Below, in pieces: positions 47,555 through 53,596 of a DNA stretch of 58,750 nt. The stretch covers positions 1 through 58,750 of the forward strand of contig NZ_JAJGBK010000027.1 of the NCBI RefSeq assembly GCF_020696975.1, written 5' to 3'. The translations under genes and the position numbers were made by a program. The notes beneath the pieces were generated by a model. That model made no database searches. It was not told the DNA's origin and saw only the letters and a program-made list of their open reading frames with translations. The stretch's first letter is position 1, and every line of letters starts with the position of its first letter. The stretch is from Methanoculleus sp. Lineage in GTDB: Archaea; Halobacteriota; Methanomicrobia; Methanomicrobiales; Methanoculleaceae.

Positions 47555-48117
47555 AGCCCCAGAGCGCATTCGAGCGCGAACCGGCACGAAGGGTCTTCGC
47601 ATCCGAGCTCCGCGAGACCCGCTACCAGTTCAAGGACGGCGAGGACGAGAAGAGCCCGACCTACGTCATCCTCCCGAGCGGGATCCGGAGCAACCGGATC
47701 TTCATCGTCGGCACCCTGACGGAGAAGCAGCGGCAGGGCGACCAGAACATATACTACCGCGGGCGGGTGGTCGACCCGACAGGCACCTTCTTCATCATGG
47801 CCGGGTCCTACCAGCCCGAGGCGATGCAGCAGCTCGCCCGGATCGAGCCGCCGGCGTTCGTCGCCGTCGTCGGCAAGCCGAGCCTTTACACGACCCCGGA
47901 CGGGGCCTGTCTCGTCTCGGTCCGCGTGGAGTCGATCTCGGTCGTGGACCGCGAGACCCGCGACCTCTGGGTGCTCGACACCGCCCGCGAGACCCTGGAC
48001 CGGCTCGACGCCTTCGGCACCACCGAGGACTCAAAGAAGGCCCAGGAGGAGTACGGGACGCGGCCGGAACTGTATCGGAAGATCGTCTACGACGCTCTTT
48101 CCCAGGTGCAGCTGTAG
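47551..48117 (+). CDS. RPA-associated protein (COG3390 type)
   Basis: A 188-residue OB-fold protein of the RPA-associated family found next to archaeal RPA genes. REPARRVFASELRET, LPSGIRSNRIFIVGTLTEK, YYRGRVVDPTGTFFIMAGSY and VGKPSLYTTPDGACLVSVR are typical. It binds and modulates RPA. Its ATG overlaps the RPA stop. A T8 tract about 30 bases after the stop ends the operon. Confidence 0.9.
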   Translation: MKPQSAFEREPARRVFASELRETRYQFKDGEDEKSPTYVILPSGIRSNRIFIVGTLTEKQRQGDQNIYYRGRVVDPTGTFFIMAGSYQPEAMQQLARIEPPAFVAVVGKPSLYTTPDGACLVSVRVESISVVDRETRDLWVLDTARETLDRLDAFGTTEDSKKAQEEYGTRPELYRKIVYDALSQVQL

Positions 48118-48142
48118 AGGCTCTACCTCCGAAACCAAACTC

Positions 48143-48158
48143 TAAAAATCTTTTTTTT
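48143..48158 (+). terminator. T-tract terminator of the RPA operon
   Basis: An uninterrupted run of eight T (48151-48158) about 33 bases after the stop codon; such T-tracts stop archaeal RNA polymerase. No strong stem precedes it. Confidence 0.5.
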
Positions 48159-48305
48159 GGGACTCATCGGTGACTCCTCCCGGACAGACGTCCCTGGACG
48201 CTGCTGTTCTTCACCTCGTGCAACCGCTCTTCCCAACCCATGAGCTCCGGTCTTTCGCGCAAAACTGATATGAGGGTCCTGACGTGTAGAGGGATGTGAC
48301 AGAAA

Positions 48306-48316
48306 AGGTATATAGC
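48306..48316 (+). promoter_or_regulatory. TATA box upstream of the structured repeat, copy 1
   Basis: AGGTATATAGC. Expected transcription start about 26 bases downstream (near 48337) falls at the very beginning of the structured repeat, so the repeat would form the 5' leader of the exported-protein transcript or a separate small RNA. Confidence 0.5.
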
Positions 48317-48341
48317 AAAACGTCGCAGCGTTAGCATGGCG

Positions 48342-48425
48342 ATGCCAAAACAGCATTGCCGGAGGTCTGTCTGCTCATTCTCCGTGGTCGGGCGGGCCCC
48401 CCTGTGTCCGGAGGCGATGCCGGAG
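48342..48425. repeat. Structured about 80-bp repeat, copy 1
   Basis: About 80 bases shared with 51173-51251. It can fold as an outer stem GCATTGCC/GGCGATGC (48353-48360 with 48413-48420) around an inner stem GGTCTGTC/GGCGGGCC (48364-48371 with 48391-48398, three G-U pairs as RNA). The second copy has different bases in the inner stem but still pairs fully, which argues for selection on structure. It lies directly after a TATA box and about 70 bases before an exported-protein gene. Confidence 0.6.
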
Positions 48426-48491
48426 TGACGATGCTCTCATAGTCATCTCGCCGCAGGCCTCCGAGTAACATGTAGTAACAAGGATGGTGAG

Positions 48492-49251
48492 ATGATGGAA
48501 AAACGAAAGATTGAGAGATCGATACTCCTGGCAGGTATTGTCATGGGGATGATCCTCGCTCCGCCAGCCTGTGCAGGAACAGGCGACGATAACGACGCTT
48601 CGTACCCGGAATTTGGCGTGGAGTACAAATGTAATTATCTTGCGGGAAATAATCAGCCGAGCAGCCCCACGAGTGCTGAGGGGTTTCGTGAGGCGCTTTC
48701 AAGCGCGGGGTGGACTGAAAGTTTCTTCATAGGAGATGAGGATAGGAACGTCAATCGCTGGACATACTCCGGCCTGGATCAGTCCTATGTTGACGGAACT
48801 GATATCGTTTACTTTGCCGGCCATGGCTGGAATCAAGGGATTCTACTCAACAGCGCACCAGGCAGCTGGGTCTATTTCCGCAATTGCGAGTGGGGGGATT
48901 ATGACCTGGAATGGATGCTCCTGGACAGCTGCCATACAGTTCAACTCCCAAGCGAACTCAAGTACTACCCACACCATGCAATGAACGGTGTATCTCGTAT
49001 GCGGATTTGATAGTGTGGGCTACGATCTCCCGGATGACGGCGCAAATGTAGCCAATAAGCTCGTAGATGGGTACAAAGTGCGACTTGCGTGGTTTATCGG
49101 CATCGACGAAAACCATGGAAGCGAGATCAGGGTAGGCATCATCGGTGAGAATGCTGACTGCGGACACGACAATGCCTGGAAGGAGGGATCGATTATTGCC
49201 GATCCTCCCGTCGACGGTGAGATCTATCGATGGCTATACAATTGCAACTGA
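48492..49251 (+). pseudogene. Exported caspase-fold-like (DUF6345-like) protein, frameshifted
   Basis: Two frames together make one protein of about 250 residues. The first (48492-49010) has a signal peptide ending near PPACAG and then FGVEYKCNYLAGN, DIVYFAGHGWNQG and LEWMLLDSCHTVQL; the GHG histidine and DSC cysteine look like the dyad of caspase/gingipain-fold proteases. The second (from about 48988) continues with LVCGFDSVGYDLPDDGANVANKLVDG. The shift of one base lies near 48983-48988, in the MNG/VYLVCG junction. The catalytic half would still be produced. GGTGA precedes the start. The family call is by motif pattern only. Confidence 0.55.
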
Positions 49252-49265
49252 CCTGGAGGAGAAAA

Positions 49266-50207
49266 ATGAATGTTAAATTAGGTGTATTTGCCTGCATTGC
49301 ACTTGCAATCGCGGTCGGATGTTTGTATGTCATGGATTCGGATTCGATCTCCGCGAGTCTCCCCAGGATGACAAGTGCTGATGATGCCACATACTCGCTT
49401 GCCGCCGAACTGCCGCAGATAAAGGAGTCTTACCCGGTATACCGGGTAAGACCCATCAAGATCACGGAAGATCAGGTCAAGGAGATAGCAAGCAGGTTCA
49501 ACCTTTCGGGAACCCCAAGGGTTTCCAACAAGGACACAGGTGAGGTGCTCGTCGTGGACACGTCCAAGCAGCCGGAAGAGCAGATCTCGGTGTACACACA
49601 TTCCGGCGCGATGATCTACCACATCCTCGACAAAGAGTTCCCGAACGAAGTAACAGAACAGCCGGAGCTGCCGTCAGATGCGGAATCAGAGAAGATCGCC
49701 CTTGAATTCCTCAAGAAGACGCAGATGGAGTCCCCGGATGCACAGATCGTGAGCGTCGGGGTAAATCAGAAGCAGGAGGTCTGGGAGGCAGGTGCCACTG
49801 AGCCGAAAGTATCGTACGATGTGACGAAAGCAGTCCGCTTTGGCCGAACACTCGACGGACTCCCGGTATACGGGGATGAATTTGCAGTGATCTTAGCTGA
49901 CGGCGGTGAAGCCGTCGGGCTTGTGAAGACGTGGAGAGAGGTTGTGCCAAACGGAAGCGTCAGCATCAAATCGCCGGAGCAGGCATACGCAGATCTCCTC
50001 GCAGCAAAGACGGTTCGTCCATCTGTGGCCGCTGAGTTTGATCGCATCGTGATCGAAGAAGTCTCGCTCGGATACTGGATGGAGCCGAGGGGTGTAATAC
50101 AGGAGACAGTCTGGCCGATCTATGTCTTTTCCGGAACAGCAACTCATAACAACATCGAGGAGCCGTACATAGCCTATGTCTTCGCGAACGAGTCGGCGGA
50201 GCGTTAG
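49266..50207 (+). CDS. Exported protein of unknown function in the caspase-like cassette
   Basis: A 313-residue protein with an N-terminal hydrophobic segment (LGVFACIALAIAVGCLYVM) that may be a signal anchor. The body repeats mixed alpha/beta units (ITEDQVKEIASRFNLSGTP, SEKIALEFLKKTQ, SPEQAYADLLAAKT) suggestive of PepSY- or YycH-like folds, and ends in PIYVFSGTATHNN. GGAGGAG lies before ATG 49266, 14 bases after the preceding frame ends, so it shares the transcript. Proteins with this kind of domain can accompany the DUF6345 domain; here they are separate genes. Function unknown. Confidence 0.6.
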   Translation: MNVKLGVFACIALAIAVGCLYVMDSDSISASLPRMTSADDATYSLAAELPQIKESYPVYRVRPIKITEDQVKEIASRFNLSGTPRVSNKDTGEVLVVDTSKQPEEQISVYTHSGAMIYHILDKEFPNEVTEQPELPSDAESEKIALEFLKKTQMESPDAQIVSVGVNQKQEVWEAGATEPKVSYDVTKAVRFGRTLDGLPVYGDEFAVILADGGEAVGLVKTWREVVPNGSVSIKSPEQAYADLLAAKTVRPSVAAEFDRIVIEEVSLGYWMEPRGVIQETVWPIYVFSGTATHNNIEEPYIAYVFANESAER

Positions 50208-50301
50208 CCGCCATGCAAATTCCTCTCTTTTTTCAGCGAACCGGCGGCTACAAGATTACAATGCTCGCAGAAGTTAAAAAGGTCTATGATGAAGGGCTAC
50301 G

Positions 50302-51162
50302 ATGAAGAGCATTCTAACGTTACCGATCCTCGTATGTGTGATCGTTCTGGCATCAGGCTGCATATTCACGCTGTTCGGCACGGTTGTCGTCAGGGATGCG
50401 TACTGCGATCTTGACAACAACTTTACGTTCACCCTGGAGAACACTGGCGGCAGCAACCGGACCATCGCGTACACGTGGACGTTAAACGATCCCATGGCCG
50501 ATATGCCGCTCTACCGGGGAGAAGGATCGATTGTCCTTAAACCGCACGAGTCGCGAACACTTACATTCAATCCTGATGTACCCTTTCACAGAAATTCCTT
50601 AATGGGTTGTGTGATATGCATCACCCTGTATACCGATGGAAAAGAGATCTACAGATTCAAGGAGCAGAAGTCGTCCCTCGACTGGGACTACTCCGTAGAA
50701 CCCCCGGTCAGGTATCTTATCAAACCGGAAACGATGTCATTCCTCTTCTCGACGGTCATCGAACGCAATTCTGACGGTGACTATATTGTTACAGTAGCAA
50801 ACAGTTCCTACGCCCCCAAGCGCACTGCGCCGGGAGTTCCCCGCAGCACCGCTCCGGGGCCGAAGATATCTCAGATTTACCTGGGGATCGGAGAAACCGG
50901 CTGGTGGACGTCACGCATCGCATCGCCGCTCCAGAACGGTTCCGCACCGGCATTCGTGGACCGGGACGGCAACTCGTGCATCACCCAAGGTGATTATTAC
51001 ATTTTGCCGGGAACTTTCGCAGGGGAGACCGTGCGATTCCGCTCTGCGAGCGGGTATATCCTTCTCACGCATACCCGCTACGCACCGGAGAGCGAACGCC
51101 CTATTTACAGTGTGTGCCAGCTGCCTCCTGATGACGACCAGATCAGACGCTCAGGCGAATGA
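50302..51162 (+). CDS. Putative lipoprotein of unknown function
   Basis: A 286-residue protein with a lipoprotein-type signal (LPILVCVIVLASGC, lipobox ASGC). The mature part is beta-rich, for example NFTFTLENTGGSNRTIAYTWTL and HESRTLTFNPDVPF, resembling immunoglobulin-like surface domains. It ends ten bases before the second copy of the structured repeat. It lies 94 bases after the preceding gene. Not recognised beyond these traits. Confidence 0.6.
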   Translation: MKSILTLPILVCVIVLASGCIFTLFGTVVVRDAYCDLDNNFTFTLENTGGSNRTIAYTWTLNDPMADMPLYRGEGSIVLKPHESRTLTFNPDVPFHRNSLMGCVICITLYTDGKEIYRFKEQKSSLDWDYSVEPPVRYLIKPETMSFLFSTVIERNSDGDYIVTVANSSYAPKRTAPGVPRSTAPGPKISQIYLGIGETGWWTSRIASPLQNGSAPAFVDRDGNSCITQGDYYILPGTFAGETVRFRSASGYILLTHTRYAPESERPIYSVCQLPPDDDQIRRSGE

Positions 51163-51172
51163 GGCAGAAGAG

Positions 51173-51251
51173 GTGCCAAACCGGCGTTGCCGGAGGTCCG
51201 CCTGCTCATTTCCGTGGTCGGGCGGACCCCCCTGTGCCCGAAGGCATTACG
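51173..51251. repeat. Structured about 80-bp repeat, copy 2
   Basis: Same orientation as copy 1 and about 80 percent identical by eye. The inner stem GGTCCGCC/GGCGGACC (51195-51202 with 51221-51228) is fully Watson-Crick; the outer stem is weaker than in copy 1. It lies immediately after the lipoprotein gene and about 170 bases before the erythromycin-esterase-like gene. No TATA box is seen directly before it. Confidence 0.6.
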
Positions 51252-51420
51252 TTGGTTGCCACTCATCAGACTTAATGGTGTGCCTCACCAATTCTGAGAA
51301 GACAGTAATCGCCCGGTTTGCCAGACTTTGTAATGCCGGATACGCCCCGCAACTTAATACCCACCGCTTTCCCAGTTGTATTACCACGAAAACCTGCCAT
51401 CCGGCAGATCGGAGTCATCC

Positions 51421-52716
51421 ATGCCCCATCCATACGCAACTCTCGACGACTGGATTGCACGCGAAGCAATTCCATTCTCCCTTGATTCGCCGGCGGCCTT
51501 CAACGCCGCCGTCGATGCGATGATTGCCGCGCTCGGCGATTCGGTGGACCTCCTCGGGTTCTCCGAAGCCCTCCACGGCGGCGAGGAACTCCTCGTCCTC
51601 CGCAACCGGCTGTTCGAGCGCCTTGTTACGGCGCACGGGTATACTGCCATCGCCATCGAGAGCAGTTTCCCAAGGGGGCGGCTGGTGGACGAATACGTGG
51701 CAGGCCAGGGCCCGGCGTCCTACGAGGACGTGCAGGAGACCGGGTACAGTCACGGTTTCGGCCGGCTCGACGCGAACCGGGAACTCGTGGAGTGGATGCG
51801 GGCATACAACACCGACCCGTCCCACCGCGTCAAACTCCGGTTCTACGGCTTCGATGCGCCGACCGAGTTCGGCAGCAGCGATAGTCCGCGCCGGCTCCTC
51901 TCCTTTGTCCTCGATTACCTCGCCGCGATCGATAGTACTGCGGGCACGGCGTACCGCGAGCAGATCGAACCGCTCATCGGCGCGGATGCCGACTGGGAGG
52001 ACCCCGCGACGGTCTTCGACCCGACAAAGTCGATAGGCCGATCGCCGGCCGCAGCCGCGCTGCGGCTCAAGACCGAGGACCTCATCGCGGAACTGCACGC
52101 CCGCCGCCCCGAACTGATCGCGAAGGGCGGGAAGGACCGCTACCAGGAAGCCGTGCAGTATGCGACGGCCGCACGGGGGCTGCTGAACTACCACGCCGGG
52201 CTCGCGCAGGCGTCGGGCGACCGGGTCTCCCGGCTCCTTGCAATGCGCGACGCGATGATGGCGGACAACCTCGCGTACATGGTCTCCCGCGAATGCGGCC
52301 GGGGAGGAAGGGTGCTCGCCTTCGCCCACAACGAGCATCTCCGGCGCGGGAAAGCGGAGTGGCAGTTCGGTGCCGACCTCTACGCGTGGTGGCCGGCGGG
52401 AGCGCACCTTGCCGGGATCCTCGGCCCACGCTACGCCGTCATCGGCTCCGCGGTAGGCATCTCGGACGCAAACGGCGTCGGCCGGCCGGAAGCCGGCACC
52501 CTCGAGGCACACCTCATCGCCGCTCCGGGGCCGGGAAGGTTCATCCCGACGCACCGGGGGGAGGGGCTTCCCGCCGGGGCTATTCCCACCCGCTCGGGGA
52601 GCAAGAAGAACCCGGGCTACTTCCCGCTCACCCCGCAGAGCCTCGCCGAGTTCGATTGGCTCGCGGTCCTTGACTCCACAGGATACACCCGCGGCGGGCC
52701 CCCGCTGCCGGAATGA
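51421..52716 (+). CDS. Erythromycin esterase-like protein
   Basis: A 431-residue protein of the erythromycin esterase/succinoglycan biosynthesis family. LGFSEALHGGEE (the G-E-x-L/T-H-G pattern), AIESSFPRGRLVDEYV, YGFDAP and FAHNEHLRRG give the conserved Glu and His residues. EreA-type members open macrolide lactones, but archaeal members have unknown substrates, so resistance should not be assumed. ORF extension to 51376 is unsupported; ATG 51421 starts at the family position. Confidence 0.83.
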   Translation: MPHPYATLDDWIAREAIPFSLDSPAAFNAAVDAMIAALGDSVDLLGFSEALHGGEELLVLRNRLFERLVTAHGYTAIAIESSFPRGRLVDEYVAGQGPASYEDVQETGYSHGFGRLDANRELVEWMRAYNTDPSHRVKLRFYGFDAPTEFGSSDSPRRLLSFVLDYLAAIDSTAGTAYREQIEPLIGADADWEDPATVFDPTKSIGRSPAAAALRLKTEDLIAELHARRPELIAKGGKDRYQEAVQYATAARGLLNYHAGLAQASGDRVSRLLAMRDAMMADNLAYMVSRECGRGGRVLAFAHNEHLRRGKAEWQFGADLYAWWPAGAHLAGILGPRYAVIGSAVGISDANGVGRPEAGTLEAHLIAAPGPGRFIPTHRGEGLPAGAIPTRSGSKKNPGYFPLTPQSLAEFDWLAVLDSTGYTRGGPPLPE

Positions 52717-52788
52717 GATCCGGGTATCCGATGCCGGTCAGAAAAATAGAGGGCTTGAAACACAAAAAAGGATCAGCGGGCCCGCGCG

Positions 52789-53427
52789 TCACTCCGCCGG
52801 CTCCTGCCGGGCCCCCTTCCACTCCCCCTTCAGTTCGGGGTAGTCCGCGAGGATCTTGCTGACCGTGCTCCGGCTGACATCGAACATCCGGCAGATCTGG
52901 CTGATGCTCGTCCCGGCCTGCCGTATCGTGAGGAGAGCCTCGACCTGCCCCTCGTTGAGCGCCCTCGGCCTCCCGATCGGCCGCCCGTCCCCTTTCTTCG
53001 CCTTCTTCGAGGCGACAGGAGCGGCTTTCCGGGCACTCTCCCGGTACTGGTCCATATACGCAATGAAGTTCGCGATGGCCTCCCGCCGGAGTTCCGGCTC
53101 GTCCCGGAACCCGAAGAAGTCGTTGTTCACGCAGTAGACGGTATATTGGTCGTTTAATCTCTTGAGTGTCGCAAGCCCGGTGTCCATATCCCGGGCAAGG
53201 CCCGCAAGATCGTAGATGATGATATCGGGGCAATTATTGGCGGCGCAGTAGTCCAGCATATCAGCGAAGCCTTTTCGCTTCTCTGGCGGTGTTGCATTTG
53301 CACGGTGGTCATTGAAGAATTCGACAATCTGAAACCGGTATTTACAATAGTTCTCGACATCGGCTTTCTGTGCAGCGAAATCTCCCTTTTTTCTCGTATT
53401 CAAGTATGCCACGGCATCTTTTTTCAT
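52789..53427 (-). CDS. Serine-recombinase homologue lacking the catalytic serine
   Basis: A 212-residue protein with a resolvase-like N-terminal domain (about 1-110) and a Hin-type helix-turn-helix (GRPRALNEGQVEALLTIRQAG then ISQICRMFDVSRSTVSKIL, about 155-200). The usual Y-x-R-V-S-T active site reads AYLNTRKKG, so catalytic Ser and first Arg are absent, and the LDRLxR block reads LAGLARD with only one Arg. It may be a DNA-binding regulator or structural relative and not an active recombinase. TATA-type GTATATATTG lies upstream, predicting a leaderless mRNA at ATG 53427. Sequence upstream to 53871 in the same frame is a shadow of ribB. Confidence 0.75.
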   Translation of the reverse strand: MKKDAVAYLNTRKKGDFAAQKADVENYCKYRFQIVEFFNDHRANATPPEKRKGFADMLDYCAANNCPDIIIYDLAGLARDMDTGLATLKRLNDQYTVYCVNNDFFGFRDEPELRREAIANFIAYMDQYRESARKAAPVASKKAKKGDGRPIGRPRALNEGQVEALLTIRQAGTSISQICRMFDVSRSTVSKILADYPELKGEWKGARQEPAE

Positions 53428-53449
53428 CCGTTTAAAATGCCGTACAATT

Positions 53450-53459
53450 GTATATATTG
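53450..53459 (-). promoter_or_regulatory. TATA box of the recombinase homologue
   Basis: CAATATATAC on the minus strand, centred about 27 bases before the ATG, so the transcript is predicted to start at or next to the start codon. Confidence 0.5.
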
Positions 53460-53596
53460 TTTTTGAAAAAACATGAGGAACGCTATTTTGCGGCGGAGTT
53501 GGGAAACCCGCATAGGTTTCCGCTCTCCGCCGGGGATGTGTAAAAAGGCCCTCCTGATACATGGGAGAGGGCGGGCCCGAGATGAAGCGGTGGGGG

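Follow-up and report, generated by a model that had tools for sequence, protein, structure and literature searches.

A family of structured leader RNAs preceding genes for exported proteins in methane-producing archaea

In this work we ask why an element of about 80 bp occurs twice, in the same orientation, around three genes for exported proteins in a genome of Methanoculleus sp., and whether the two copies represent a structured RNA or the ends of a mobile unit. Both lie in the window, by which we mean the whole stretch of 58,750 nucleotides analysed. The arrangement described in a previous sequence-only reading was confirmed: the copies, at approximately 48341-48422 and 51172-51252, are separated by about 2.83 kb and share 86-91% identity over two repeat blocks, and they enclose three exported-protein genes, the first of which (DUF6345) is split into two frames in the window. 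The TATA box from which that reading predicted transcription to begin at copy 1 is likewise present.

Two repeat copies around an exported-protein operon

The features of the locus, including the three hairpins (P1 to P3) of the element, are as follows. R2 and R3 denote covariance models introduced below, and G019 a second genome of the genus (MAG HGW-Methanomicrobiales-2).

48282..48304, + strand: promoter-proximal motif ACRTGTARNNNNNNNNGNSAGAA, common to many family members (exact-match counts)
48309..48315, + strand: TATA box TATATAG, about 25 nt 5' of the RNA element and its P1, with equal spacing in homologues
48334..48465, + strand: copy 1, complete leader-RNA element P1-P2-P3 (R2 and R3 matches; G019 orthologue)
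48338..48360, + strand: P1 hairpin, GGCGATGC / GCATTGCC (MFE fold; P1 covariation in the family)
48361..48401, + strand: P2 hairpin, GG-A-GGTCTGTCTG / CGGGCGGGCC..CC (MFE fold; family covariation)
48408..48463, + strand: P3 basal helix, CCGGAGGC / GCCTCCG (sequence; family covariation)
48492..49251, + strand: DUF6345 exported-protein gene, first after the leader (Pfam PF19872 on both pieces)
49269..50207, + strand: second gene, exported protein (FTP-propeptide similarity weak, below cut-off)
50302..51162, + strand: third gene, exported lipoprotein-like protein (only in the window and G019 among 35 genus genomes)
51172..51300, + strand: copy 2, the same element 3' of the last gene (R2 match; G019 orthologue)

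A DNA similarity search of the 2.29-Mb genome returned the window copies as the only matches (E 9e-45 and 4e-19), and elsewhere in the genus it identified a single orthologous pair, in G019, where these genes, along with both copies, are found in the corresponding place. The resulting view of a two-copy oddity in two genomes was discarded, as DNA similarity alone misses a family that was recovered solely by covariance models.

Copy 1 shares 87.2% identity with its G019 orthologue and is followed by a start codon at 48492. The gene that begins there is read in the window as two frames (48492-49010 and 48988-49251), with a frameshift near 48990 where the window is about 2 nt shorter; in G019 it is intact, as one 252-aa frame, and the interrupted version represents either a pseudogene or an assembly error. 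Two further interpretations of copy 1 were set aside. A leaderless 30-codon open reading frame starting at 48337 (ATGGCGATG...) has its frame broken in other copies by a 1-nt indel in the P2 loop, and the occurrence of GGCGATGC on both flanks of copy 1, which might be taken for a target duplication, is accounted for by the P1 and P3 strands and is inexact in G019.

The inner stem, which differs between the two copies while remaining paired, had been offered as evidence for a conserved hairpin. The pairing is indeed kept, but it falls short of proof, since the two copies differ by G-U changes on one side only. Of 27 pairs compared across the four nearest copies (window and G019), none is altered on both sides, and G019 copy 1 carries one C-A mismatch. 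Thermodynamic folding is unexceptional for copy 1 alone (z -0.6), and gives z -2.4 for copy 2. By themselves, the two copies are weak evidence for a hairpin that is plausible but unproven from them; the real evidence comes from the wider family.

A leader family recovered by covariance models

The covariance search proposed in the sequence-only reading, using both copies against archaeal genomes, revealed many further members. The R1 model, built from only the window copies and their G019 orthologues (4 sequences), was scanned against 232 Methanomicrobiales genomes and, beyond its own sequences, gave weak matches with E values of 0.0016-0.5 per genome. Some of these are chance matches inside coding sequence; the remainder have a recognisable element of 140 nt in common, many of them with the same promoter upstream, and almost all lie immediately 5' of genes encoding signal peptides or lipoprotein signals. 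Eleven of the members found with R1, leaving out the window copies, were used to build the R2 model, which matched 62 of the same 232 genomes, spread over 16 of 40 genera. R2 also recovered both window copies with no training on them, copy 1 at 22.3 bits (E 0.0043 in 551 kb) and copy 2 at 23.6 bits (E 0.0021), scores which at 22-24 bits are low and count against the explanation we favour. The score of copy 1 with the R3 model (37.8 bits) is circular, as copy 1 is in the R3 training set.

R3, built from 103 members, identified 15 members and one antisense echo in the genome of the window itself, and matched 62 of 393 genomes across the phylum, the counts from the large scans, in which 8-20 candidates were scored per genome, being lower bounds. 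Among the matches listed, the family is confined to the families of the order plus f8, f30 and f36, with the f8 genera (including g87) probably belonging to the Methanosarcinaceae. The viral contigs scanned gave no match. At several loci (L122, G000:C4:41449-48297; L129; L139; L158) exported-protein genes form tandem clusters in which every gene has a separate leader, some at spacings of 3-9 kb. Two others (L077:1080-1220 and L082:7583-7724) hold more leaders without an intact exported-protein gene downstream, which may be remnants.

Members share an order of TATA box, P1-P2-P3, spacer, Shine-Dalgarno sequence and start codon, with an element of approximately 140 nt forming three hairpins. P1, a hairpin of 7-9 bp, lies at the predicted 5' end, with the TATA box about 25 nt upstream; P2 is a hairpin in which one A is bulged (GG-A-GGUUCACC...GGUGAACC-CC); and P3, a longer stem, runs from CCCGGAGGC to GCCUCCGGG and contains both an inner helix (P3a) and the conserved sequence ACUUAA. 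The start codon follows about 20-30 nt past P3 (mostly 20-26), and the Shine-Dalgarno sequence is mostly GGAGG.

Among 101 distinct members, both-sided changes were found in 34 of 38 pairs, a count which leans towards the model since the alignments are fitted to its structure, and the covariation score was 0.318 compared with 0.163 for shuffled alignments (0/500 shuffles) and at most 0.104 for slid versions of the structure. A second and largely independent set of 51 matches, mostly from lineages outside model training, gave 0.430 versus 0.165 (0/500) and at most 0.093 when slid; here P1 is 96.8% paired and all nine of its pairs (9/9) are doubly changed. P3a is 89% paired, with a score of 0.285 versus 0.235 (1/500 shuffles). 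One feature of riboswitches, a covarying and conserved structure within the 5' UTR of the gene under control, is found here. The element constitutes, with near certainty, a structured leader family. Copy 1 is one of its members and probably serves as the 5' leader on the mRNA of the DUF6345 operon.

Copy 2 and the bracketing of the operon

Over its 129 nucleotides (51172-51300) copy 2 is identical to its G019 orthologue at 117 positions (90.7%) with no indels, a level above that of both the neighbouring gene (82.8%) and copy 1 (87.2%), while its flanks are unalignable between the species (approximately 41%); we therefore consider that copy 2 has been retained. In both the window and G019 it is without a TATA box, promoter motif or downstream exported-protein gene, and a downstream-gene scan identified no start codon after it. 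Its P2 is perfect, while P1 and the 3' strand of P3 have diverged from the family consensus. Copy 2 would represent a promoterless, still-constrained second member at the 3' end of the operon, and is probably either a duplicated leader whose gene is gone or a 3' RNA element. That it instead encodes a small protein is highly unlikely. Such a reading would explain an indel-free 129 bp of 90.7% identity in which a frame of 38-39 codons reaches a shared TGA uninterrupted in the two species and conservation stops at that TGA. However, the six differences within the frame, read by hand, comprise three silent and three replacing changes, the window copy has no ATG, copy 1 loses the frame through its 1-nt indel in the P2 loop, and the frame ends also coincide with the RNA element.

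The sequence-only reading had further suggested that the copies might be the ends of a mobile or recombining unit, an idea that we found unsupported: the repeats are direct rather than inverted, and no transposase is enclosed. The notion of an exchanged cassette with the copies as its ends or recombination sites draws on the restriction of the cassette to 2 of 35 genus genomes, the direct repeats at both ends and a resolvase gene nearby. Against this, the resolvase is found at the same locus in many relatives that lack the cassette, the repeats have diverged with no transposase between them, and nearly all other family members examined stand singly 5' of their own gene. None of the hallmarks of transposon ends (terminal inverted repeats, a transposase or target-site duplication) was identified; a search for target-site duplications saw none, the sequence outside copy 2 being unalignable, and the repeat pair without the cassette occurs in no genome of the genus. 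We give mobility almost no credence: the bracketing is the outcome expected of two members of a multi-copy leader family, one of which has no gene downstream.

The surrounding region (window 48117-53590), which lies between an RPA-like gene and ribB, is variable. At this locus many of the relatives checked carry a resolvase-HTH gene, to which some add a gene for a small two-helix membrane protein or an erythromycin esterase, and the exported-protein cassette is present there in only 2 of 35 genomes.

Targets, proposed function and relation to known leaders

A start codon preceded by a Shine-Dalgarno sequence lies within 75 nt of the element in 91 of 101 members, and 81 of these 91 starts lead into an N-terminal hydrophobic segment of the export type, compared with 122 of 408 ORFs taken as controls in the same regions; among ORFs of the window the segment occurs in 5 of 50. 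The corresponding count of context in the second set was 47 of 51, with copy 2 (window and G019) making up two of the four exceptions. Clustering of the mature parts of the 91 targets gave 32 groups, between which BLAST shows no similarity at 1e-5, and a Pfam domain above cut-off was found in 6 of 20 target representatives: DUF6345 twice (one in family f30, L182), and transglutaminase-like, peptidase C39-like, reprolysin-like and DUF4367 domains once each. The common property of the targets is export, and no single pathway is indicated.

Furthermore, the promoter-proximal motif ACRTGTARNNNNNNNNGNSAGAA has 13 exact matches in the genome of the window, as opposed to 0 for a reversed-pattern control. 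Nearly all are located just 5' of genes for exported or membrane proteins, and in 7 of the 13 cases a leader match follows directly. The shared motif suggests a regulon. In four other genomes (L034 in G027, L018 in G006, L019 in G007 and L030 in G013) the same promoter and first nucleotides (TGGCGATGC) are present at the corresponding site and are followed by a small membrane-protein gene; P2 and P3 are absent and R3 finds no leader. Another locus (L243, G000:C7 near 146300) has the promoter motif upstream of a gene for a membrane protein, with an apparent P1 hairpin and truncated leader between them.

The leaders very probably act in cis on the expression of the exported-protein genes that follow, and we infer that they would do so at translation initiation. 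When the 3' strand of P3 (GCCUCC) pairs with the 5' strand (GGAGGC), the Shine-Dalgarno sequence GGAGG, 10-20 nt downstream, would be free; in the alternative pairing, the same 3' strand would capture GGAGG. Stabilisation or opening of P3 by a protein, a ligand or temperature could then serve as a switch in the translation of secreted-protein mRNAs. The complementarity of CCUCC to GGAGG exists in nearly all members, including copy 1, whose P3 3' strand matches the usual Shine-Dalgarno sequence. Additional complementarity between P3 and the flank of the Shine-Dalgarno sequence is not above permutation (321/2000), and mean Shine-Dalgarno accessibility, 0.46 versus 0.37 with shuffled leaders, spreads widely between members; given these results, the switch through P3 is only a proposal, which we hold tentatively. 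More doubtful still is a general, secretion-linked control in which the leader would sense protein export or the state of the envelope, for example through an RNA-binding protein associated with the membrane or SRP or through a metabolite of the envelope, and would govern translation, or direct the mRNA to the membrane, for unrelated exported proteins as a class in Methanomicrobiales and Methanosarcinaceae.

The main alternative is a structural leader that senses nothing, stabilising or insulating the mRNA and keeping the Shine-Dalgarno sequence accessible for high constitutive expression of exported proteins. Strong and simple hairpins, a Shine-Dalgarno sequence slightly more accessible than with shuffled leaders and the lack of covariation between P3 and the Shine-Dalgarno flank are all consistent with such a role, but the conserved stretches TGCCCGGAGGCA and ACTTAA exceed what insulation needs, and the shared promoter motif suggests a regulon; we regard it as somewhat unlikely. 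The similarity between members could also reflect recent duplication rather than RNA function, if a module of promoter, leader and signal peptide had been copied to new genes, as many targets, clustered together, have similar signal peptides (MNGKIGMRAFSVLLAVLLVSV...). Other targets, however, have unrelated signal peptides, lipoprotein ones included, and compensatory changes exceed controls by a wide margin in two lineages whose primary similarity is low, which makes copying of this kind very improbable as an explanation.

To our knowledge, few classes of cis-regulatory RNA have been recognised in archaea, and most leaders that we know of are tied to a pathway. The family described here is tied instead to the destination of the protein: unrelated exported proteins have a structured leader in common, in many cases together with a promoter motif, with copies numbering up to 15 or more in one genome and with members in two methanogen lineages. 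This pattern suggests a shared RNA element controlling proteins sent outside the cell in methane-producing archaea. As one of these lineages probably includes the genetically tractable Methanosarcina, co-regulation of an archaeal secretome could be tested directly with a reporter.

The earlier suggestion of an undescribed RNA motif is strongly supported by the many copies, strong covariation, fixed position before exported-protein genes and lack of an Rfam match. A search of the whole window against Rfam 15 at gathering scores returned no family, and the element region together with 23 loci of divergent members (E up to 10, 5 or 1) gave chance matches far below gathering; ARAGORN found 0 tRNA or tmRNA genes in the window. 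No description of the family was found in the open-licence literature, a prior description being possible in subscription papers and preprints, and it was not found in a 2010 motif survey (Weinberg et al., PMC2864571). Long leaders have been reported in related methanogens: 5' UTRs exceed 50 nt in 51% and 150 nt in 24% of Methanolobus psychrophilus mRNAs (PMC5378194), a study that also cites long 5' UTRs in M. mazei. That work on Methanolobus and Methanosarcina concerns lengths and temperature-regulated starts rather than a shared RNA family, and no mention of such a motif by name was found in it.

Like riboswitches and candidate motifs (Rfam; PMC2864571), the family is a structured, covarying 5' UTR RNA positioned directly before the start codon, across genera and in multiple copies; unlike riboswitches, it has no known ligand, and its targets are unrelated, sharing only export and no metabolic pathway. 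It also resembles the L7Ae k-turn mRNA leaders (PMC5539422), archaeal 5' UTR structures thought to control translation, from which it is set apart by its targets: L7Ae leaders precede l7ae and RNP genes, whereas the leaders identified here precede genes for exported proteins.
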